Assembly (NCBI GenBank): GCA_022729705.1
Contig: DZAX01000007.1
Coordinates: 24,409-88,408, forward strand
From: Helicobacter cetorum
Lineage (GTDB): Bacteria > Campylobacterota > Campylobacteria > Campylobacterales > UBA6016
Direction of reading: 5' to 3'
Length of the DNA stretch: 64,000 nucleotides
In this document: positions 2,243-63,895 of the stretch, one piece after another
Layout: each line of letters starts with the position of its first letter
How positions within the stretch are numbered: position 1 is the first letter of the stretch
Translations under genes and position numbers: made by a program
The notes under the pieces: generated by a model
Databases searched by the model: none
Told to the model about the DNA's origin: nothing
The model's input: only the letters and a program-made list of their open reading frames with translations

Positions 2243-2327
2243 GATTTGGTTTTTGAACGGTAAAAATACAGACTATTATGCTTAAGGTTTGACCTTATGC
2301 GCTAAAAAATGCGAAGATGCGCTATTT

Positions 2328-2420
2328 CTCCGGCGAAGCCGGTAGCTTCAGGGGGTTGCAAGGGACATTTATGTCCCTGCCGCCTATACGGGCTTTGCCC
2401 GTATAGGCGCGTAACATCAA
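2328..2420 (+). repeat. Dispersed three-hairpin repeat family A (full copy)
   Basis: ctccggcgaagccggtagcttcagggggttgcaagggacatttatgtccctgccgcctatacgggctttgcccgtataggcgcgtaacatcaa. Confidence 0.8.
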
Positions 2421-2424
2421 TATT

Positions 2425-3850: not shown

Positions 3851-5077
3851 TTGAGTTTGGCTCAAATACTTCGCCCCTCCTCTTTGGAGGATTTTTTGGG
3901 GCAAAAACATCTGCTTGGCGCCGAGGCTCCTTTTTTGCGGCTTGTCGAGGCGGGTTCTATTCCGCACTCTTTTTTCTTCGGTCCTCCCGGAACCGGCAAA
4001 ACATCTCTCGCTCGTATTATCGCCGCAAAGTTGGAGGCTAATTTTTTTGAGTTTAACGCCACAAGCGTAAAGATAGACGACATAAGAAAAGCCGTAGACG
4101 CAAACAAAAACTCTTTTACAAAACCGCTGATTTTTATAGACGAAGTGCATAGGCTCTCAAAAACACAGCAAGAGGTGTTGCTTCCGATTATGGAGAATAA
4201 GTTTGCGCTTATAATCGGCGCCTCTACAGAAAACCCGTTTTTTTCGCTAACAGGCGGTATTCGCTCGCGTTCTATGCTGTTTGAGTTTTTTTCGCTAACG
4301 GATGATGATTTGAGGAAGGCTCTTGCAAAAGGGTTGCAATCGCTTGGCAAAGAGGCGGACGAGGATGCGGCGGAGTATCTCGTGCACTCTTCATCGGGCG
4401 ACGCAAGAGCTATGCTAACTTTGCTGGAGTTTGCCGCAAAGCTCGAAGATAGGATTACGCTAGACATCCTCAAAAAACTTAGACCACAAGCCTTGACGGA
4501 TGGAGCAGGGGAGTCTGAGACGCATTACAATCTCGCAAGCGCTCTTATCAAAAGCGTAAGAGGCTCCGATGAAAACGCCGCCGTGTATTATCTGGCGCGT
4601 CTTCTTGCTGGAGGTGAGGAGCCTCGATTTGTCGCACGCCGTCTAGCCATACTTGCCGCCGAAGACATAGGCAACGCAAATCCAAACGCCCTGCAACTAG
4701 CGAACGCCGCTTTTTCGTTGGTAGAAAAGATAGGTATGCCGGAATCCAGAATTATCCTCTCGCAACTGACGATATATCTAGCTTGCTGCCCAAAATCAAA
4801 CTCCGCTTATACAGCGATAGACGATGCCTTGGCTTTGGTGGAGAGCGGCGAAATACAGCCGGTGCCGCCACATCTTAAAGACGCACATTTTGCCGGAGCA
4901 AAAACTCTTGGAAGAGGGGTGGGCTACAAGTACCCGCACGATTTTGGCGGCTGGGCGGAGCAACAATATACGCAAAAACCGCTTGATATAGTAAAGCTAA
5001 AAGATATTGGGTTTGAAAAGACGCTAAAAGAGTGGCTAGGGAAGATAAGAGTCCGCCTTACAAACTATCCCGTATAG
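3851..5077 (+). CDS. rarA: Replication-associated recombination protein A (MgsA/RarA-type AAA+ ATPase)
   Basis: RPSSLEDFLGQKHLLG, FFGPPGTGKTSLARI, FIDEVHRLSKTQQ, C-terminal YKYPHDFGGWAEQQY. Confidence 0.92.
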   Translation: MSLAQILRPSSLEDFLGQKHLLGAEAPFLRLVEAGSIPHSFFFGPPGTGKTSLARIIAAKLEANFFEFNATSVKIDDIRKAVDANKNSFTKPLIFIDEVHRLSKTQQEVLLPIMENKFALIIGASTENPFFSLTGGIRSRSMLFEFFSLTDDDLRKALAKGLQSLGKEADEDAAEYLVHSSSGDARAMLTLLEFAAKLEDRITLDILKKLRPQALTDGAGESETHYNLASALIKSVRGSDENAAVYYLARLLAGGEEPRFVARRLAILAAEDIGNANPNALQLANAAFSLVEKIGMPESRIILSQLTIYLACCPKSNSAYTAIDDALALVESGEIQPVPPHLKDAHFAGAKTLGRGVGYKYPHDFGGWAEQQYTQKPLDIVKLKDIGFEKTLKEWLGKIRVRLTNYPV

Positions 5078-9210: not shown

Positions 9211-10695
9211 ATGAGAAAAAAGACGGTTTTGATAATAACGGACGGCATAGGTCACTCTGAAAAAAAAGAGTTTAATGCTTTTTACTCTGCAAACAAACCG
9301 ACATACGACTATTTGTTTGCTAACGCACCTTATTCGCTTGTCAAGACGCACGGGCTAAGTGTTGGTTTGCCGGAGGGGCAGATGGGAAATAGCGAAGTTG
9401 GGCATATGACGATAGGTAGCGGAAGAATTCTCTATCAAGATCTTGTAAAAGTATCTTTAGCGTTGCAAGACGGCTCTCTTGAGGCGCATCCAAAACTCCA
9501 AGAGCTTTTCGTCTCCTGTGGCGATATACATATAGCCGGGCTTGTTTCGGATGGCGGCGTTCACTCGCACATATCTCACATAGCGGGTCTTGCAAATATA
9601 GCGAAAAAAAACGGGAAAAAAGTGTGGCTTCATGCGATAACCGACGGTAGAGACGTAAGCCCAACCTCTTCAAAAGAGTTTGTGGCAGAGCTTTTAAAAG
9701 TTTGCGGTGAAGACGTCAAGCTGGCGAGCATAAGCGGAAGATTTTACTCTATGGATAGAGACAACCGTTGGGATAGGGTTGAAAAGGGCTACATGGCTAT
9801 TGCTGAGGCGACGCCAAAAACAGAGCTTGAACCGCTTGCGTATATAGACGAGGAGTATGCGAAAGATATAACCGACGAGTTTTTGACAAGTGCGGCTTTT
9901 GACGGATATGAGGGCATAAAAGAGGGTGACGGCTTTATCTTTGCAAATTTCAGAAGCGATCGCGCTAGAGAGATAGTTACGGCTCTTGGCAAAGAGGATT
10001 TTAACGGCTTTGAAAGAGTTTACAAAAAAATAAACATGGTTACGATGACTGAATACTCAAAAGAGTTTGACTATCCAATCTTGTTTGAAAAAGACGAACC
10101 AAAAAATACATTAGCCGAAATAATTGCGGCGGCCGGCGTCTCTCAACTGCATACGGCTGAAACAGAAAAATATGCGCATGTTACTTTTTTTCTCAACGGC
10201 GGCGTAGAGACTCCATATCCTGATGAAACTAGGGTATTAATACCAAGCCCGAAAGTAAAAACGTACGACGAAAAACCACAGATGAGCGCCGAAGAGGTGG
10301 CGGACGCTGTGCTCAAAGCAATGGATGAAGAGTACGGGTTTGTGGTCGTCAATTTTGCCAACGGCGATATGGTGGGGCATACCGGTAATTTTGAGGCGGC
10401 TATAAAAGCCGTTGAAACGGTTGACGCTTGCCTTGGCAGAATAATTGAAAAAGCTAAAGAAAAAGAGTACTCCATACTTCTTACCTCTGATCACGGAAAT
10501 TGCGAAGAGATGAGAGACTCCGAGGGGCATACGCTCACAAACCATACCGTTGGAAGTGTATACTGCTTTGTTATCGACGAAGAAGTCAAAAGCGTAAAAG
10601 AGGGCGGACTAAACAATATAGCCTCAACGGTGCTTGCACTAATGGGGCTAGAAAAACCCTCAGAAATGGATGAGGCGCTGATAAAAATAAGCTAA
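9211..10695 (+). CDS. gpmI: 2,3-bisphosphoglycerate-independent phosphoglycerate mutase
   Basis: LIITDGIGHSE, GQMGNSEVGHMTIGSGRILYQDLVK, ANGDMVGHTGNFEAAIKAVE, LTSDHGNCEEM. Confidence 0.96.
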   Translation: MRKKTVLIITDGIGHSEKKEFNAFYSANKPTYDYLFANAPYSLVKTHGLSVGLPEGQMGNSEVGHMTIGSGRILYQDLVKVSLALQDGSLEAHPKLQELFVSCGDIHIAGLVSDGGVHSHISHIAGLANIAKKNGKKVWLHAITDGRDVSPTSSKEFVAELLKVCGEDVKLASISGRFYSMDRDNRWDRVEKGYMAIAEATPKTELEPLAYIDEEYAKDITDEFLTSAAFDGYEGIKEGDGFIFANFRSDRAREIVTALGKEDFNGFERVYKKINMVTMTEYSKEFDYPILFEKDEPKNTLAEIIAAAGVSQLHTAETEKYAHVTFFLNGGVETPYPDETRVLIPSPKVKTYDEKPQMSAEEVADAVLKAMDEEYGFVVVNFANGDMVGHTGNFEAAIKAVETVDACLGRIIEKAKEKEYSILLTSDHGNCEEMRDSEGHTLTNHTVGSVYCFVIDEEVKSVKEGGLNNIASTVLALMGLEKPSEMDEALIKIS

Positions 10696-10714
10696 GCTGT
10701 GCATTTAAAATATA

Positions 10715-10810
10715 CTCTCCCGCTAAGCGGGTAGCTTTAGGGGGTTGTAGGGACATTTATGTCCATGCCGTCAATACGAGCTTTGCTCGTATTGACGTTT
10801 AACATTGAAT
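10715..10810 (+). repeat. Repeat family A (full copy)
   Basis: ctctcccgctaagcgggtagctttagggggttgtagggacatttatgtccatgccgtcaatacgagctttgctcgtattgacgtttaacattgaat, directly upstream of fabG. Confidence 0.8.
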
Positions 10811-10827
10811 ATATAACAAGGATTGTA

Positions 10828-13230: not shown

Positions 13231-14169
13231 TTGGCTTTTTATTTAGATTTTGAAAAAAAAATACAGCAGCTGCAAGAAGAGATAGAGCTAAGTAGCGTCA
13301 AAAAAGATTTTCACGCCGTGGAAATTTTACAAAAAGAGCTAGATAAAGAGGTCGTTAAGACATTTAAAAATCTAAATGAGTATCAAAAGCTTCAGCTTGC
13401 CCGTCACCAAGATAGACCGTATGCGCTTGATTATATCCATTTGATAATGAGCGACGCTTACGAGATTCATGGGGATAGACACTTTAGGGATGACGCTTCT
13501 ATTGTATGCTTTATCGGCAAAATAGGCGATGTGAATTGCGTCGTAATTGGCGAAGAAAAGGGGAGGGGTACTAAAAACAAAATACAAAGAAATTTTGGTA
13601 TGCCTCATCCTGAGGGCTACAGAAAAGCTCTTCGTGCGGCAAAGCTCGCCGAGAAGTTTAACCTTCCTATTTTAATGCTTATAGACACCCCCGGAGCGTA
13701 CCCGGGGCTTGGAGCCGAGGAGAGAGGGCAGTCTGAGGCGATAGCTAGAAATCTTCTTGAGCTCTCCCGGATAGAAGCCATAACCATATCTATTGTTATT
13801 GGCGAGGGCGGTAGCGGCGGAGCTTTGGCTATAGGCGTAGCCGATAGGCTTGCCATGATGAGATATAGTGTTTTTAGTGTTATATCGCCGGAGGGGTGCG
13901 CCGCAATTTTGTGGAGTGATGCTTCAAAAGTAGAGACCGCGACAAACGCTCTAAAAATAACGCCTGACGACTTAAAATTTTTGGGCTTAATAGATGATGT
14001 CATAGATGAGCCGGTTATAGGGGCGCATAGGGACAAAGAGGGCGCCGCAGAGGCTCTAAAGGGTTATTTTCTAAGCTCCATACAAGAGCTTAGCTCTTTT
14101 GATAATGAGACAAGAAACGCTGCTAGATACAAAAAACTAATGAGTTTGGGCAGGTTTGAGGAGCGATAG
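13231..14169 (+). CDS. accA: Acetyl-CoA carboxylase carboxyltransferase subunit alpha
   Basis: [25 protein letters not shown]-type carboxyltransferase domain, [41 protein letters not shown]. Confidence 0.96.
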
Positions 14170-14184
14170 CTAGATTGAATTTGT

Positions 14185-14230
14185 CACCGATACAAGCAAA
14201 GCTTGTATCGGTGCATAATATCAATATTTT
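14185..14230 (+). repeat. Repeat family A, 3' hairpin only (partial copy)
   Basis: caccgatacaagcaaagcttgtatcggtgcataatatcaat: stem plus degenerate cgtaacatcaat tail; followed by attttagtgaa, similar to the flank of the 2328 copy. Confidence 0.65.
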
Positions 14231-18798: not shown

Positions 18799-18811
18799 GT
18801 GTGTCCATATT

Positions 18812-18893
18812 TGATGTTACGCAACGACGAACAAAGTCCGTCGTTGCTACGCTGAGCGCTTAGCTACTAAAGCTAGCCGCCGTGAGGCGGCAG
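18812..18893 (-). repeat. Repeat family A, strongly diverged copy upstream of mnmG
   Basis: Reverse strand reads gcaacgacggactttgttcgtcgttgcgtaacatc: hairpin with unrelated stem sequence but conserved gcgtaacatc end; further hairpin gccgccgtgaggcggc adjacent. Confidence 0.55.
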
Positions 18894-18994
18894 AGTTAAG
18901 TCGTATCTGATTTATTTTTGTATAAAAAGATGAGCTTATTTTAGCAAATTTGCGCTAATTTAGCTCTTTGCGCGCGGGCTTTGCCGCGTGCGGA

Positions 18995-19291: not shown

Positions 19292-19479
19292 ATAACTACC
19301 CCCGCCTTGTTTTTAAAAGCCCCAAATATTACTTTATCATTCCTGAAATAATGAAATTATCGCCTTTGCTTACTCGTTTTTTTCGATATTTGGGAGTTTA
19401 TTGGCGTTTTTGATAAAATTTATATTTGTTGCAATAAAAGGCGCGGCGTAAGCCATATTTAGAAAAAATAGTGCGATAC

Positions 19480-19575
19480 CTCTCCCGCATTTATGCGGGT
19501 AGCTTCAGGGGGTGCAGGGACGCTCGCGTCCTTGCCATAAATAGGGGCTTTGCCGCTATTTATGCGTAACATCAA
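19480..19575 (+). repeat. Repeat family A (full copy)
   Basis: ctctcccgcatttatgcgggtagcttcagggggtgcagggacgctcgcgtccttgccataaataggggctttgccgctatttatgcgtaacatcaa; hairpin 2 loop-side pairs changed from at/at to gc/gc. Confidence 0.82.
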
Positions 19576-19592
19576 ATTAGACAAGGCAAAAT

Positions 19593-20336
19593 ATGAGTCA
19601 AAAAGGTATTGGTGGGCATAGGCTGGCTGTGCTTATAGACGCGGAAAACGCGCAAGCTTCTCTCGCTCCCTATCTTCTCTCGGAGATAGCCAAATACGGC
19701 GTGGCTAGCGTGAAGAGGATATATGGAGACTGGACGAAACCGCAGCTTGGCGGTTGGAAAGAGACACTTCTGACTCACTCTATACAGCCGATGCAGCAGT
19801 TTAGCTACACAACCGGCAAAAACGCCACCGATAGTGCGCTTATCATAGACGCTATGGATTTGCTTTATACGGCAAAATTTGACGGGTTTTGTATCGTCTC
19901 CTCCGATAGCGACTTTACCAGGCTTGCCGCTAGGATAAGAGAGTCGGGGCTTGTCGTATACGGCTTTGGAAAGCGTCAGACGCCAAAAGCTTTTGTGGCG
20001 GCGTGCGATAAGTTTATCTACACCGAAATCTTAAAAGAGGAGAAAGAGGGAGGCGCGGAGGTTGCGCTAAAGCCAACCAAAGAGAGTCCAAAAGACGAAA
20101 AACTACGCACACTCCTATCCGTCGCCGTAGAGGATTCGGGAGATGAAAACGGCTGGGCGAACCTAGGCGCCGTGGGAAGCGAAATCAACAAATACTCTCC
20201 TGATTTTGACCCTAGAAACTATGGATTTAAAAAACTAAGCGATTTGATAAAAGCCACCGGAATGTTTGAGTTTGATGAAAGAGACCACAAAAATTCACAA
20301 ACAAAAACTGTATATGTAAGATTAAGAAGAAAGTAA
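19593..20336 (+). CDS. NYN domain (LabA/DUF88) putative RNase with C-terminal OST-HTH/LOTUS-like domain
   Basis: RLAVLIDAENAQASL, NATDSALIIDAMDLL, FCIVSSDSDFTRLAARIRESGLVVYGFG, and C-terminal LGAVGSEINKYSPDFDPRNYGFKKLSDLIKATGMFEF. Confidence 0.87.
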   Translation: MSQKGIGGHRLAVLIDAENAQASLAPYLLSEIAKYGVASVKRIYGDWTKPQLGGWKETLLTHSIQPMQQFSYTTGKNATDSALIIDAMDLLYTAKFDGFCIVSSDSDFTRLAARIRESGLVVYGFGKRQTPKAFVAACDKFIYTEILKEEKEGGAEVALKPTKESPKDEKLRTLLSVAVEDSGDENGWANLGAVGSEINKYSPDFDPRNYGFKKLSDLIKATGMFEFDERDHKNSQTKTVYVRLRRK

Positions 20337-20338
20337 TC

Positions 20339-20410
20339 AAAGCCCGTGTTAGCGGCAAGGATAAATGTCCCTGCACCCCCTAAAAAGCTCCTGCGTATAC
20401 GCAAGAGAGC
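20339..20410 (-). repeat. Repeat family A, truncated inverted copy abutting the NYN stop codon
   Basis: agcccgtgttagcggcaaggataaatgtccctgcaccccctaaaaagctcctgcgtatacgcaag. Confidence 0.65.
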
Positions 20411-20480
20411 GGCAAGCCGCGAGAGCCCTCTGCTGAAGAGCTAATTTCTGGCTTTGCCAGAAATTTGAGAATTACATCAA
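20405..20480 (+). repeat. Repeat family B copy
   Basis: agagagcggcaagccgcgagagccctctgctgaagagctaatttctggctttgccagaaatttgagaatta. Confidence 0.6.
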
Positions 20481-28265: not shown

Positions 28266-28402
28266 CCCTCAACTTATGGTAAGGGTTATCTTTAAAAAGC
28301 TCAGGATTTGAGTCAAACTTTCTAGGTAATGTATCATAGGGACTTTTAAACTTCAAAGCTTTCAATTTCTTTTGGTGATTGTAATAAAGCAAGTAGCTCA
28401 TC
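28266..28402 (-). pseudogene. IS remnant: transposase C-terminal fragment identical to 541-677
   Basis: 137 bp identical by eye to 541-677. Confidence 0.65.
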
Positions 28403-28418
28403 AAGTGTTTTTTAGCAA

Positions 28419-28466
28419 ATAGCTCTTTGAAGCGCTCATTTCATAGAGAGTTTTGCAAGAAGTCTA
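28419..28466 (-). repeat. Putative IS end, inverse of 732-779
   Basis: atagctctttgaagcgctcatttcatagagagttttgcaagaagtcta. Confidence 0.55.
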
Positions 28467-28558
28467 GCATATCAGCTTTTGCGGTAACGCTTGCTATAAT
28501 AACGGTATTAATAACCAAAAAAGGCGACTCATTGGATGATAACTAATTTTACGCACAC

Positions 28559-28656
28559 ACTCCCCCGCATTCATGCGGGAAACTTTAGGGGGTTGCAAGG
28601 GACATTTATGTCCCTGCCGTTAATATGGGCTTCGCCCATATTAACGTATAACATAA
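28559..28656 (+). repeat. Repeat family A (full copy), ends 1 nt before the flippase ATG
   Basis: actcccccgcattcatgcgggaaactttagggggttgcaagggacatttatgtccctgccgttaatatgggcttcgcccatattaacgtataacataaa. Confidence 0.82.
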
Positions 28657-28657
28657 A

Positions 28658-29899
28658 ATGATTAAAAGCATAAGAACGCAAAAAAAACTGCTCTCAAATA
28701 TACTCTCTCTAATGGTCTTGCAGGGCGCAAACTATATTTTGCCGCTTATCACGCTACCTTATCTTGTCATAACTCTTGGCGTGGAAAAATTCGGTATTTT
28801 GGCGTTTGCCCAAGCTATAATCACATACCTAAACACCCTTGTGGATTACGGCTTTAATCTCTCAGCCACTAGAGCCATCGCGACCAACTCGCAAGACTCC
28901 AAAAACGTCTCTTCGGTGTTTATATCCGTCATACTCATCAAGATATTTTTACTGTGTGTTTCGTTTGTGATTTTGTCTGTTTTGATAAGCTCTTTTGATC
29001 GCATCGGCTCGGAGGCTATCGTGTACTATATGGCGTTTGGCGCACTTATTGGAAATCTGCTTTTTCCGGTTTGGTATTTTCAGGGAACTGAGGATATGAA
29101 GTATATTACTTATATCAATATCCTCTCAAAGCTTCTTTTTACCGTCGCAATTTTTGTTTTTGTGCATGAGCGGGCTGATTATGCCATGGTGCCTATGCTA
29201 AACTCGCTAGGTCTTATTATCGGCGGTGCTATTGCGCTTTTTATTGCGATTAGAAGGATAGAGTTTCATATTCCGACGTTTGAGTATGTCAAATCAATTT
29301 TTAAAGAGAGCACGTCGCTTTTTGTCTCCAACGCCTCTATCTCGCTGTTTACCGCTAGTAATACGCTGATTTTGGGGCTTTTTGCGAGTAACGCCGTTGT
29401 TGGTATATACGCTGCGATAGAAAGGTTGATGACAGCCATAAAATACTTTTACGCTCCATTGTATCAAGGTCTTTTTCCTTGGCTTGCCAAAAAAGATAGG
29501 GTTTCTATAGTTGGATTTGTATCTAGGTTTTTCCCGTATATCGGAGTGTTTGGTCTCTTGGTTACTATCCTAATAGCCGCTTTTGCACATCCTATTTTGA
29601 CGCTAATTTACCAAAACAAAACCATTGGCGACCACTATGAGGTTCTTCAAATATTTTCTCTCGTATCGGTTTTTAATGCAACAAGTATGCTTTTTAATTA
29701 TCTATTTTTGAATGTTATGAGAGAGTATAAGGAGCGAATGAGAATACTGCTTATTACGGGGTTTTTTAATGTGATTAGTGGGACGATATTAGCTTACAGT
29801 TTTGGGCTAATCGGCGTCGTCTGCTCAGTTACCGCCACGGAAGCCTTGCTTCTTGTGCTTAGTTATTTAAAATTTAAATCCATAAAAAGGAGCTTGTGA
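28658..29899 (+). CDS. Polysaccharide flippase (Wzx-like)
   Basis: GANYILPLITLPYLVITLGVEKFGILAFAQAI; multi-TM. Confidence 0.87.
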   Translation: MIKSIRTQKKLLSNILSLMVLQGANYILPLITLPYLVITLGVEKFGILAFAQAIITYLNTLVDYGFNLSATRAIATNSQDSKNVSSVFISVILIKIFLLCVSFVILSVLISSFDRIGSEAIVYYMAFGALIGNLLFPVWYFQGTEDMKYITYINILSKLLFTVAIFVFVHERADYAMVPMLNSLGLIIGGAIALFIAIRRIEFHIPTFEYVKSIFKESTSLFVSNASISLFTASNTLILGLFASNAVVGIYAAIERLMTAIKYFYAPLYQGLFPWLAKKDRVSIVGFVSRFFPYIGVFGLLVTILIAAFAHPILTLIYQNKTIGDHYEVLQIFSLVSVFNATSMLFNYLFLNVMREYKERMRILLITGFFNVISGTILAYSFGLIGVVCSVTATEALLLVLSYLKFKSIKRSL

Positions 29900-34592: not shown

Positions 34593-34699
34593 AGCTGATA
34601 TTTTAAAAAGTTATTTGGAAATTTGGGGGCATTGGACTTCTTGCAAAACCCTCTATTATACCTGAAGAATGGGGGGGGCTAAACGCCTAAGCAACTCTC

Positions 34700-34739
34700 C
34701 TTTGCAACCCCCCAAAAGTTACCCGCGCGCACGGGAGTG
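34700..34739 (-). repeat. Repeat family A, 5' part only (inverted partial copy)
   Basis: cctttgcaaccccccaaaagttacccgcgcgcacgggagtg. Confidence 0.55.
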
Positions 34740-34812
34740 TAAAATAAGCTATGACTTGCCCAAAAATTAGCTTTTTTTCGCTAACATTACGAAAAAACGG
34801 GGGTTAAACGAC

Positions 34813-42054: not shown

Positions 42055-42084
42055 CACATGCATATAAGCTCACAACATTAGTTA

Positions 42085-42182
42085 CTCTCCCGCACGAGCG
42101 GGTAGCTTTGGGGGGGGATGCAAGGGACATTTATATCCCTGCCGTTAATATGGGCTTTGCCTGTATTAACGTGTAACATTTA
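42085..42182 (+). repeat. Repeat family A (full copy)
   Basis: ctctcccgcacgagcgggtagctttggggggggatgcaagggacatttatatccctgccgttaatatgggctttgcctgtattaacgtgtaacattt. Confidence 0.8.
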
Positions 42183-42198
42183 TTTTTAGAGGCGTATC

Positions 42199-43955: not shown

Positions 43956-43973
43956 TTTCTACTCCTTATTATT

Positions 43974-44067
43974 AGATGTTACGCATAAATACGGGCAAAG
44001 CCCGTATTTATGGCAAGGACATAAATGTCCCTGCACCCCCTAAAGCTTTGCGCATAAATGCGCAAGA
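43974..44067 (-). repeat. Repeat family A (full copy, inverted)
   Basis: agatgttacgcataaatacgggcaaagcccgtatttatggcaaggacataaatgtccctgcaccccctaaagctttgcgcataaatgcgcaa; upstream of the Uma2 gene. Confidence 0.82.
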
Positions 44068-44097
44068 AAAAGTAAGCTTAATTTTTAATATAGCGCA

Positions 44098-48711: not shown

Positions 48712-48818
48712 CTTTTACCCTTGAAATAAATATTTTTTAGATTTTACACAAAAGCTGTTTTAGGCTCCCGATTTGCATCGATATTGATGGAATGACCAGT
48801 CTTACGCACCAAAATATT

Positions 48819-48911
48819 TCTCCGGCAAAGCCGGTAGCTTTAGGGGGTGCAGGGACATTTATGTCCTTGCCGCTAATGCGAGCTTTTGCTTGTATTAGCG
48901 CATAACATCAA
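48819..48911 (+). repeat. Repeat family A (full copy), overlaps the 3' end of the O-antigen ligase-like CDS
   Basis: tctccggcaaagccggtagctttagggggtgcagggacatttatgtccttgccgctaatgcgagcttttgcttgtattagcgcataacatcaa. Confidence 0.8.
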
Positions 48912-51814: not shown

Positions 51815-52133
51815 TATTACAAAAACTCCATTTTTTGAAAAGCGTGTAAGAGAGCTTAAGAAGCGTTTTGGAAATATCGAAGAAGACCTGGATGGTTGGA
51901 GTGAGCACCTAAACGATATAGAAGAGCTCGGCGTCCAGCTAAAAAGCAATGTCTATAAAGTGCGCATAGCAAACAGCGATAAAAATAGAGGCAAGAGTAG
52001 CGGATATAGACTTATCGTATATCTAAAACTTTGCAATAATGAATTGGTTTTTATTTATATTTACGATAAAAGCGATATAGAAAATATAAGCGAAAATGAA
52101 CTTGATAAAGCCATAATGAATATTATAAACTAA
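51801..52133 (+). CDS. RelE/ParE-like type II toxin
   Basis: 110 aa; ITKTPFFEKRVRELKKRF...VYKVRIANSDKNRGKSSGYRLIVYLKL...LVFIYIYDKSDIENI. Confidence 0.75.
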   Translation: MPKFDITKTPFFEKRVRELKKRFGNIEEDLDGWSEHLNDIEELGVQLKSNVYKVRIANSDKNRGKSSGYRLIVYLKLCNNELVFIYIYDKSDIENISENELDKAIMNIIN

Positions 52134-52138
52134 AGCCT

Positions 52139-52178
52139 TACTAATACGGGTTTTGCTCGTATTAGCGCATAACATCAA
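52139..52178 (+). repeat. Repeat family A, 3' hairpin only
   Basis: tactaatacgggttttgctcgtattagcgcataacatcaa immediately after the toxin stop. Confidence 0.65.
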
Positions 52179-52583
52179 AACAAAAATGGGAAACCAAAAT
52201 GCTACAATACAAAAAATGAGATAAATGACCTCTCAATAAAAGAGAAAATTGAAATTTCGGAAATTATAAAATCTATTAAAGCGAATCATTGACCGCCCTT
52301 AAAACCATTCTCTTTTTCATCCTGATATAATTTGTGTAGCTTTGTATCCCTACCGCCAATGGCTTTTTGATCAAAACGACCCTAATCAGACTCCACCACC
52401 AAAAAACTCCCCCCACTTTAAGCTCTTTTTCAGCGGGGGGGGTAACATCTATTACAAATTATCACAAAAAAATAATAAATATCATAAGCGCTCAAACTAT
52501 CGCCAATAATCGCCAATAATCACCCAAAAGCCACCCATATCACAAACCAAACCCAAAAACCCAAAAAACAGGAGCATAGCCAA

Positions 52584-55190
52584 ATGGCAAAAGCATACTT
52601 AGAACCAACAGACCAAACCTTCACAGCAAACAACCCCAATACAACCATCTACGGTCAAGACGGACAACAAAGCATAGTAATATCGGGGAGCGCCTCCAAC
52701 ATCATCTTGGATCAAAACATAGAAGAGATACTGTTGCAAAAACCATCGACTGACTACACATACAAACAAACCGGAAATACCCTAAAGCTTTATGAAGTAA
52801 ACACCCTAATACTCTCCATCACACTGCAAGGAGACAATGACGGCACAAAGCTGATATTCTCAAACGGCTACGCCTACGCCACCCTGCAAGACTCCATAAT
52901 GAAACTAGGAGGCTCCACCTCCTCGCAAACAGAAGACGCAAGCATAAGAGTATTTGACCAAAACCAAGTAATAAATCCCCTAACCCTAAAAACAACAACC
53001 CCATCAAACAACCAATCATCAGTAGCCTCAGATACAAACTTCACACTGACATTTAGCGAAAGCGTCACAGCGGGGAGCGCCAAATACATCACAATCAAAA
53101 AAACAAATGACAACAGCACAATAACCACAATAGAAACCACAGACCCACAAATAACAATAAACGGCGACACAGTCACGATAAACCCAACCAACAATCTACC
53201 AACAGACTCAGGCTACTACATCCTAATAGACAAAGGAGCTTTTGTAAGCTCTAGCGGCTCGATGTATGAGGGGATTAGCTCTAGCGGAGCGTTTGGCTTC
53301 TCTACCCCCGTCACATACTACCCAGACCCATCGCCGGCTCCAGCTCCAGCTCCGCCAGCAGACACGACCGCCCCGACACTATCAAGCTCTACACCGATAG
53401 GCGACGCGACGGGAGTAGCCCAAAGCGCAAATATAGTACTGACGATGAGTGAAAACGTCACAGCGGTAACGGGTAAAAACATCACTATCAAAAAAACAAG
53501 CGATAACTCGACGGTAGCGACGATAGACGCGGCGGACGCTCAGGTGAGCGTAGCGGGGAGTGTGGTGACGATAAACCAAGCGATAACGCTAGGGTCAAAT
53601 ACGGGGTATTATGTGTTGGTGGATAACGGGGCTTTTAAGGACTCGGCGAATAATGTCTATGCGGGGATAAGCTCAAATACGGCTCTTAGTTTTACTACGG
53701 CTATCAATCCGAATGTAAGCCTAACTACTATAGCCGCAGGAACAGGCGGATTTGCAATCAATGGAGAAGCGGCGTTCGACAATAGCGGCGCCTCCGTCTC
53801 CTCCGCCGGAGACGTAAACGGAGACGGTTTAGCCGATTTGATTGTTGGGGCTCTAGGTAATGACGCAACAGCCTCAGACGCCGGAAGAAGCTACGTAGTA
53901 TTCGGCAAAAGCGACACAACTATGGTAAGCCTAGCTACCATAGCCGCAGGAACAGGCGGATTTGCAATCAACGGAGAAGCGGCATGGGACTATAGCGGCG
54001 TCCCCGTCTCCTCAGCCGGAGACGTAAACGGAGACGGTCTAGCGGATTTGATAGTTGGAGCTTATCGGAATGACACAACAGCCACAGACGCAGGAAGAAG
54101 CTACGTAGTTTTCGGCAAAAGCGACGGCGGTGTAGTAAGCCTATCCACCATAGCCACAGGAACAGGCGGATTTGCAATCAATGGAGAAGCGGCTAACGAC
54201 GGAAGCGGCGGATCCGTCTCCTCCGCCGGAGACGTAAACGGAGACGGTCTAGCTGATTTGATTGTTGGGGCTAGATATAACGACACAACAGCCTCAAACG
54301 CCGGAAGAAGCTACGTAGTATTCGGCAAAAGCGACGGCGGCGTAGTAAGTCTATCCACCATAGCCACAGGAACAGGCGGATTTGCAATCAATGGAGAAGC
54401 GGCGGATGACGAAAGCGGCACCTCCGTCTCCTCTGCCGGAGACATAAACGGAGACGGTCTAGCTGATTTGATTGTTGGGGCTTATCTAAACAACACAACA
54501 GCCACAGACGCCGGAAGAAGCTACGTCATCTTCGGCGGCTCCCAATGGCTAACAGAAAGCATAACCGGCTCCGGTACGGTAAACGGCACAGCCGCAAGCG
54601 AAGCCCTAATAGGCTCCTCCTCCCCAGACACCCTAACCGGAAATGGCGGCATAGATAGATTCTACTCAGGAGACGGAGCCGACACAATAATCCTAACACC
54701 CACCGACATAACAAACCTATCCGATAACGGAGCAGGCTTCCCAAAAGCCGCAGTAGACGGAGGAGGAGACATAGACACCCTAAGACTATCAAACGGAGCA
54801 AACCTTGATTTGACGGTAGTAGCCAACCAAGGAGCCGCCGGAGTAGAAGAAAACAGCCGAATAGAAAGCATAGAGTGTATTGACCTAGCCACAGACACAG
54901 CGGCAAACGCAGTAACCCTAACAATAAAAGACGTAATAGACATAAGCGGAATGAACCTATTCAATTCAGGCAACGGCTACACAGGTCTGGCCGCAAGCGT
55001 CTCAAAACACCAAATCATAATAGAGGGAGGAGCAACCGACACGCTAACAATCAACGAAGGAACCGGAACCTTCACAAACACCACAACGGCAACATACGGA
55101 GGAAACACCTACAACGTATACGAAAACGCGACTTCTAATGCGCAGATTTTGGTTTTGAATGTTGTGGGGGTTACGAATAATGATGTGTAA
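52584..55190 (+). CDS. Large surface/secreted protein: Ig-like (Big_5-type) domains, four FG-GAP repeats, RTX-like C-terminal region
   Basis: Two Ig-like repeats (FTLTFSESVTAGSAKYITIKKTNDNSTITTIE / IVLTMSENVTAVTGKNITIKKTSDNSTVATID); four SAGDVNGDGLADLIVGA blocks; GSGTVNGTAASEALIGSSSPDTLTGNGGIDRFYSGDGADTI. Confidence 0.87.
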   Translation: MAKAYLEPTDQTFTANNPNTTIYGQDGQQSIVISGSASNIILDQNIEEILLQKPSTDYTYKQTGNTLKLYEVNTLILSITLQGDNDGTKLIFSNGYAYATLQDSIMKLGGSTSSQTEDASIRVFDQNQVINPLTLKTTTPSNNQSSVASDTNFTLTFSESVTAGSAKYITIKKTNDNSTITTIETTDPQITINGDTVTINPTNNLPTDSGYYILIDKGAFVSSSGSMYEGISSSGAFGFSTPVTYYPDPSPAPAPAPPADTTAPTLSSSTPIGDATGVAQSANIVLTMSENVTAVTGKNITIKKTSDNSTVATIDAADAQVSVAGSVVTINQAITLGSNTGYYVLVDNGAFKDSANNVYAGISSNTALSFTTAINPNVSLTTIAAGTGGFAINGEAAFDNSGASVSSAGDVNGDGLADLIVGALGNDATASDAGRSYVVFGKSDTTMVSLATIAAGTGGFAINGEAAWDYSGVPVSSAGDVNGDGLADLIVGAYRNDTTATDAGRSYVVFGKSDGGVVSLSTIATGTGGFAINGEAANDGSGGSVSSAGDVNGDGLADLIVGARYNDTTASNAGRSYVVFGKSDGGVVSLSTIATGTGGFAINGEAADDESGTSVSSAGDINGDGLADLIVGAYLNNTTATDAGRSYVIFGGSQWLTESITGSGTVNGTAASEALIGSSSPDTLTGNGGIDRFYSGDGADTIILTPTDITNLSDNGAGFPKAAVDGGGDIDTLRLSNGANLDLTVVANQGAAGVEENSRIESIECIDLATDTAANAVTLTIKDVIDISGMNLFNSGNGYTGLAASVSKHQIIIEGGATDTLTINEGTGTFTNTTTATYGGNTYNVYENATSNAQILVLNVVGVTNNDV
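53723..54540 (+). repeat. Four in-frame tandem repeats, period 210 bp (70 aa, FG-GAP)
   Basis: tagccgcagg/tagccacagg anchor at 53731, 53941, 54151 and 54361 (exact 210-bp spacing) with high sequence identity. Confidence 0.92.
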
Positions 55191-56739: not shown

Positions 56740-56952
56740 CGTTCTACCCTGCGGCGTGGGAGGTATTGACGAGGAGGCTAAAAATTATGGTACGAGAGTC
56801 AGCCCCCTTTAGTAAAAAACGACGAACTTCACCAAAAATCTTTGCGCGATATATAAAGATAAAAAAATGGGTGTCAGGCACTCTTTTATGCATAATGCGC
56901 ATTCTCTCAAGTCTCCAAATTCATTTTTTATTTTATTTGATATAAATGGTAT

Positions 56953-57015
56953 ATGGCAAAAATAGACGAGATAAAAGAAAAAGAAATGGGAAAAGGGTGT
57001 CAGGCACTCTTTTAA
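56953..57015 (+). pseudogene. Truncated protein A N-terminus (unit 3)
   Basis: MAKIDEIKEKEMGKGCQALF*, interrupted at gggtgtcaggcactctttt; TATAAA 6 nt before the ATG. Confidence 0.5.
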
Positions 57016-57117
57016 GTAAAAATTGGACAATCCAAAAATCCCTTAAAGTCAAAAATATATTGTCTGCACAATTTCAACTTTTAAGCTTTTTATTACAATC
57101 TCCGATATAATAATCAT

Positions 57118-63650: not shown

Positions 63651-63795
63651 AAGTCCGTCTTCTGTTTGTGCTAATACTGATTGATCTCCAAAGCCGGAGA
63701 TAACTCTTTTTAAATTTTCCAGAGTATTCGTACGCTTTCACTTGTAATTTTAATGCTATATTATACATTTTTACCCTTTTATTTTTTTGAATACC

Positions 63796-63895
63796 CAATA
63801 TTACGCGCCAATACAGGCAAAGCCCGTATTGGCGGCAGGGACATAAATGCCCCTTGCATCCCCTGAAGTTGCCCGCACGTGTGGGGAGGGGAGGG
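63796..63895 (-). repeat. Repeat family A (full copy, inverted)
   Basis: aatattacgcgccaatacaggcaaagcccgtattggcggcagggacataaatgccccttgcatcccctgaagttgcccgcacgtgtgggga. Confidence 0.8.

Follow-up and report, generated by a model that had tools for sequence, protein, structure and literature searches.

The repeat at positions 28559-28656 of the window (the whole 64,000-nucleotide stretch of Helicobacter cetorum DNA analysed here) raises the question of whether it is a mobile unit, a transcribed structured RNA or a binding platform, and where such a unit begins and ends. The first-pass annotation had described it as an intergenic element of about 95 bp, here called family A, with at least 8 full copies in the 64 kb. 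A covariance model built from 35 copies of the same genome recovers all 8 of them at 91-120 bits (E-values from 7e-23 to 6e-31), and the partial copies reported alongside (14185, 18812-, 20339-, 34700-, 52139) return at 17-36 bits, that at 34700- being marginal. The element at 28559-28656 is confirmed; the boundaries given for it are too short, as it spans 28543-28657 and its left inverted repeat (28543-28556) lies outside them. The parts of this copy are the following:

28536..28542, no strand: left 7-bp target duplication ATGATAA, 6/7 identical to ATGATTA at 28658
28543..28556, plus strand: left terminal inverted repeat CTAATTTTACGCAC, 1 mismatch to CTGAYNTTACGCAN
28564..28579, plus strand: hairpin 1, CCCGCATTCATGCGGG; the CTCC before it is able to pair with AGGGGG
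28583..28598, plus strand: conserved linker CTTTAGGGGGTTGCAA, its conservation partly fixed by the search pattern
28599..28614, plus strand: hairpin 2, GGGACATTTATGTCCC
28618..28646, plus strand: hairpin 3, a stem around GGGCTTCGCCC, with compensatory changes among copies
28644..28657, plus strand: right terminal inverted repeat ACGTATAACATAAA, decayed, its position set by the target duplication
28658..28664, no strand: right 7-bp target duplication ATGATTA

The ATG of the right duplicate (28658) is also the start of a 413-aa polysaccharide biosynthesis ORF (28658-29899). The other copies in the window are:

2293..2424, plus strand: copy of 132 bp in which the two inverted repeats can still be made out, with 3 and 2 mismatches
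10693..10814, plus strand: copy separating a phosphoglycerate mutase ORF from the ORF that follows; its left repeat is decayed and its left boundary approximate
19476..19579, plus strand: copy, core and right repeat (covariance model)
42079..42186, plus strand: copy, core and right repeat (covariance model)
43969..44072, minus strand: copy, core and right repeat (covariance model)
48796..48911, plus strand: copy of 116 bp, both repeats recognisable
63791..63895, minus strand: copy, core and right repeat (covariance model)
18807..18897, minus strand: divergent copy, second hairpin different (36 bits)
14139..14228, plus strand: partial copy, hairpin 3 and right repeat (33 bits)
20312..20413, minus strand: partial copy, breaking off within hairpin 3 (25 bits)
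52097..52182, plus strand: partial copy, hairpin 3 and right repeat (22 bits)
34646..34743, minus strand: possible partial copy, hairpin 1 end, the weakest (16.8 bits, E 0.09)

Intact family A copies are non-coding, measure 115-144 bp and are bounded by 14-bp inverted repeats, CTGAYNTTACGCAC ... GTGCGTAACATCAG. When copies from across the order are compared, they start with CTGACCTTACGCAC or CTGATGTTACGCAC and finish with the complement, GTGCGTAACATCAG or GTGCGTAAGGTCAG; the consensus of the 14-bp repeat is CTGA(CC/TG)TTACGCAC plus its complement, the shared end sequence is CTGAYNTTACGCA, and the right end terminates in TCA(A/G). These ends occur at 30/27 sites in genome G005, 40/44 in G029 and 53/51 in G040, against 0-1 for a reversed-pattern control. 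In the genome that contains the window, one copy is perfect (C6:43918-44047, both ends with 0 mismatches, duplication TTATACA). Most of the others have retained the core and the hairpins and lost the left repeat, which was found within 3 mismatches in 12/54 sampled copies (control, 2/54). A second set of ends was sought for the copies that lack it, and no duplication appeared at any boundary tested; these copies have probably lost their mobility. Family A also forms head-to-tail arrays (L018 1498-1780, L025, L004), with hairpin 1 shortened or lost at each junction. At least 6 of 68 family A copies in this genome have a second repeat, GGGCAAAGCCCAAAATGAGGTCTTCAGCAGACGGCTCTCGCGGCTAGCCGCTC, immediately or a short distance to their 5′ side, as if the two moved as a pair (5′ of copies in L003, L004, L030, L298, L314 and L330; in the window at 453-515 and 20408-20447), and in some genomes a small hairpin precedes the element.

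The flanks of the element were then examined. The direct repeats that surround it are exactly 7 bp long, with the consensus target TTAWWAA. In a set of 49 family A elements, chosen for having no more than 2 mismatches at each end, the two flanks are identical at 7/7 positions in 17 and at 6/7 or more in 28, whereas shuffled pairing gives averages of 0.56 and 3.2; flank identity is 57-84% across the seven positions and 16% immediately outside. When short elements with all kinds of interior are pooled, 37 perfect duplications are found, again with the consensus TTAWWAA. Empty sites in close relatives, proposed as a check at first pass, were indeed present at two clean sites. At the 10715 site, flanked by the phosphoglycerate mutase ORF (9211-10695) and the ORF after it, about 130 bp in the window correspond to 7 bp in the sister species G001, while in the sister species G002 the flanks abut directly (3-bp overlap), the copy being absent from both. 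For this copy, sequence resembling the G001 empty site lies on the right, and a comparable A/T run closes the left flank; a duplicated target would look like this, although the left repeat here is decayed. At 48811 (the copy at 48796-48911, reported as 48819), 139 bp in the window correspond to 15 bp in G001, which has no copy.

The genomic context was assessed with ORF-based gene calls for over 90 copies from many genomes. Between co-directional genes the copy has the strand of the pair in 30 cases and the opposite one in 27; 21 copies sit at convergent and 14 at divergent sites, and no copy lies clearly inside a gene. Taken together, the inverted ends, the 7-bp target duplications, the empty sites and the intergenic, strand-neutral copies lead us to conclude that family A is very probably a non-autonomous, cut-and-paste-type transposable element (MITE), one of the options offered at first pass. 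Its intact copies entered AT-rich DNA between genes, each insertion duplicating 7 bp close to TTAWWAA, as the flanks show directly. Two observations sit less easily with this conclusion: the origin of the approximately 150 copies of this genome was not directly seen, their left repeat being recognisable in 12/54 only, and transposition alone does not account for the compensatory changes seen in hairpin 3.

The same ends are found on elements of 269, 163-189, 211-241 and 132-163 bp with unrelated interiors (G005, G040, G029, G201, G035), which often carry perfect 7-bp duplications; at least 4 MITE families unrelated in their interior have family A ends together with the target duplication. Perfect duplications also surround two shortened forms of family A, deletion derivatives of 90 and 77 bp devoid of hairpin 2 and of most of hairpin 3, so that it is the ends that the transposase requires, and these two hairpins are dispensable for movement. 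One member of the 165-bp family (L217, G040:C1:341596-342030) is 435 bp long; the additional sequence in its interior, delimited by GGGCACCTCTAAAGGCCCC / GGGGCCTTTAGAGGTGCCC, may be a nested insertion.

Since several families with unrelated interiors share both ends and duplication, one transposase type probably moved them all. Judging from the target duplication only, this would be a trans-acting transposase, probably of the DDE type, recognising the 14-bp ends. Searches of stretches and site lists from G000, G005, G029, G040, G201 and G219 turned up neither an autonomous element nor a transposase gene with family A ends. Ordinary genes and MITE copies are all that lies between facing ends in G040 (3.8 kb), G005 (7 kb), G029, G000 and G219 (787 bp), and the contig ends in G201 gave the same result, with no autonomous partner. 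An insertion sequence of the same genome as the window, with ends CTCATCTTTCGCAC identical to CTGACCTTACGCAC at 11/14 positions, was initially promising as a partner; it was dropped, as a search of seven other genomes, several of which bear the MITE, did not find its transposase. Another repeat of this genome, with ends CTCATCTTTCGCACCTAA (L236 534-761, L237 274 and 3916-4228, L246, L247), is often located at contig ends and once adjoins a truncated transposase-like ORF.

As for the interior, the three hairpins announced at first pass are real. A 99-nt copy folds at -44.7 kcal/mol compared with a shuffled mean of -24.5 (z -5.8), and the z-scores of the copies range from -5.7 to -9.1. In the alignment of the 35 copies of this genome, hairpins 2 and 3 are paired in 98.1% of the cells, and changes on both sides of the stem occupy 52 cells compared with 13 in shuffled alignments, a difference which is indicative only, because the shuffles leave the relatedness of the copies in place. 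In the predicted fold the outer repeats pair with each other, and therefore a single strand folds into a cloverleaf with three arms. We propose that the three-hairpin interior, closed in this way by the paired ends, is kept by compensatory changes, and that it may affect neighbouring transcripts by analogy with other bacterial MITEs.

Could these hairpins instead be the ends of a REP-type element moved by an IS200/IS605 (Y1) transposase, be it a RAYT or another, as the first-pass annotation had also suggested? The genome does contain three Y1 genes, and family A is rich in hairpins and finishes in TCA(A/G). However, none of these genes is accompanied by family A repeats or ends. Each of the two RAYT-like genes has repeats of another kind around it: GGGTGTCAGGCACTCTTTT, a separate REP-like family unrelated to family A, around the gene in L032 (1380-1440, 2370-2400), and GCGGGGCTAAAGCCCCACTTCC, several copies of which are held by the coding sequence of the gene in L033 (1381-2103) itself. 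The third gene is IS605-like, with an internal TGA and an adjoining TnpB, and no family A ends are nearby. Moreover, Y1 (HUH) transposition makes no target duplication, whereas family A displays one of 7 bp, and its three hairpins over 115-144 bp are not the single 20-40 bp palindrome with a GTAG foot of a REP; in this respect the first-pass view of a composite, rather than a single REP hairpin, was correct. We consider a Y1-driven origin extremely improbable. Scarcely any credence can be given to a cis-acting structured RNA leader (riboswitch-like or a post-transcriptional regulator) that is present many times by chance. Several copies in the window are followed at 20-35 bp by a start codon of the same strand, and the strong folding and the compensatory changes in hairpin 3 would suit such a role. 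On the other hand, the over 90 copies from many genomes have no strand preference (30 versus 27) and are common at convergent sites (21), copies are absent from orthologous sites in sister species, and no Rfam family matches at E 0.5 (7 loci with copies); at the gathering cut-offs, Rfam finds only tRNA in the window. Given the neutral strand counts, it is probably due to chance that several window copies sit 5′ of a gene on its own strand, and a 5′-leader reading of these copies was rejected on these counts. The structured RNA or binding platform envisaged at first pass gains no support from gene orientation or from Rfam; as the hairpins do covary, a side function of this kind may nevertheless exist.

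A different possibility would complement the MITE reading and leave it in place: the interior of a mobile element was later kept for a host role, such as stabilising or terminating transcripts, and the copies in this genome are now under selection. The core and hairpins kept in this genome while the left repeat is mostly gone, as well as the compensatory changes in the hairpins, speak in its favour. However, these copies were gathered by core similarity, which inflates core conservation, so that the persistence of the core is suggestive of selection and not a proof of it; in G219, where elements were selected on their ends only, the cores are variable, and hairpin-templated repair can also restore palindromes. 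On balance we regard such a host role as unlikely, though worth keeping in mind. It is somewhat more doubtful still that the cloverleaf interior is a selected module, acting as structured RNA or as single-stranded DNA to the advantage of the element or the host, phylum-wide and independently of mobility; its benefit might lie, for example, in transcript control or in hairpins that the machinery for transposition or replication makes use of.

The covariance-model search suggested at first pass yields at least 148 copies in this genome of 2.19 Mb, and relatives of the element occur in many other Campylobacterota. An exact-pattern scan of GTDB genomes matched at least 120 stretches, and all the matches listed belong to Campylobacterota, the genera among them being Sulfurimonas, Sulfuricurvum, Sulfurovum, Sulfurospirillum, Arcobacter and others. 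Over 397 Campylobacterota genomes the end counts are patchy, a pattern that fits a mobile element: a few genomes have 25-50 per strand, and the majority, with almost every genome of two large families (f11, f14) among them, have none or no more than background. In one consensus search each, plasmid records gave a match only in Sulfuricurvum kujiense pSULKU01, and phage records gave none.

Other multicopy repeats invite comparison. ERIC/IRU and BOX elements are about 100-150 bp long, intergenic, multicopy and provided with several hairpins, with no coding partner. Family A resembles them in all these features and differs by its clear target duplications and by ends shared with unrelated interiors; to our knowledge, they have no sequence relation to family A. 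The bacterial MITEs listed in PMC3733652 include RUP, NEMIS/Correia, Nezha, EFAR and Bcr1. Like family A these are short, non-coding, intergenic and multicopy, with inverted ends and strong folding; family A has other ends, a 7-bp TTAWWAA duplication and a cloverleaf interior, and is found only in Campylobacterota among the at least 120 pattern-scan stretches listed. The same source defines REPs as single palindromes of 20-40 bp, links the GTAG families to RAYTs and records short GTAG and CGTC palindromic repeats in Sulfurovum sp. NBC37-1 (PMC3733652). These repeats share with family A the phylum and the intergenic, palindromic character, and are set apart from it by their size and class as described there. 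Our literature searches found no description of an element such as family A, and together with the Rfam result this agrees with the first-pass remark that it was possibly undescribed: family A is apparently new, while the general MITE lifestyle is already known.

Family A would be part of a very abundant group of mobile elements in free-living Campylobacterota, unreported as far as searched, in which several short elements with unrelated interiors have in common a single set of ends and a single 7-bp target rule. Through it, genome rearrangement and the evolution of intergenic regions in this phylum can be approached directly; about 150 sites between genes could be masked by annotators in a single genome, and the ends pose a concrete search for the missing transposase.

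The window contains further repeats. The REP-like GGGTGTCAGGCACTCTTTT is present at 56865-56895 and 56991-57021. Positions 541-677 and 28266-28402 form an identical 137-bp pair, a recent duplication or another mobile piece, near which lies an inverted 67-bp match (732-798 / 28400-28466). Four tandem 210-bp repeats (53715-54554) fall within an 868-aa ORF (52584-55190), and between 55945 and 57946 five 55-nt repeats (GATATAATNNNNNNATGGCAAAAATAGATAAAATAAAAGA), each over a start region, make up an array of similar gene starts.
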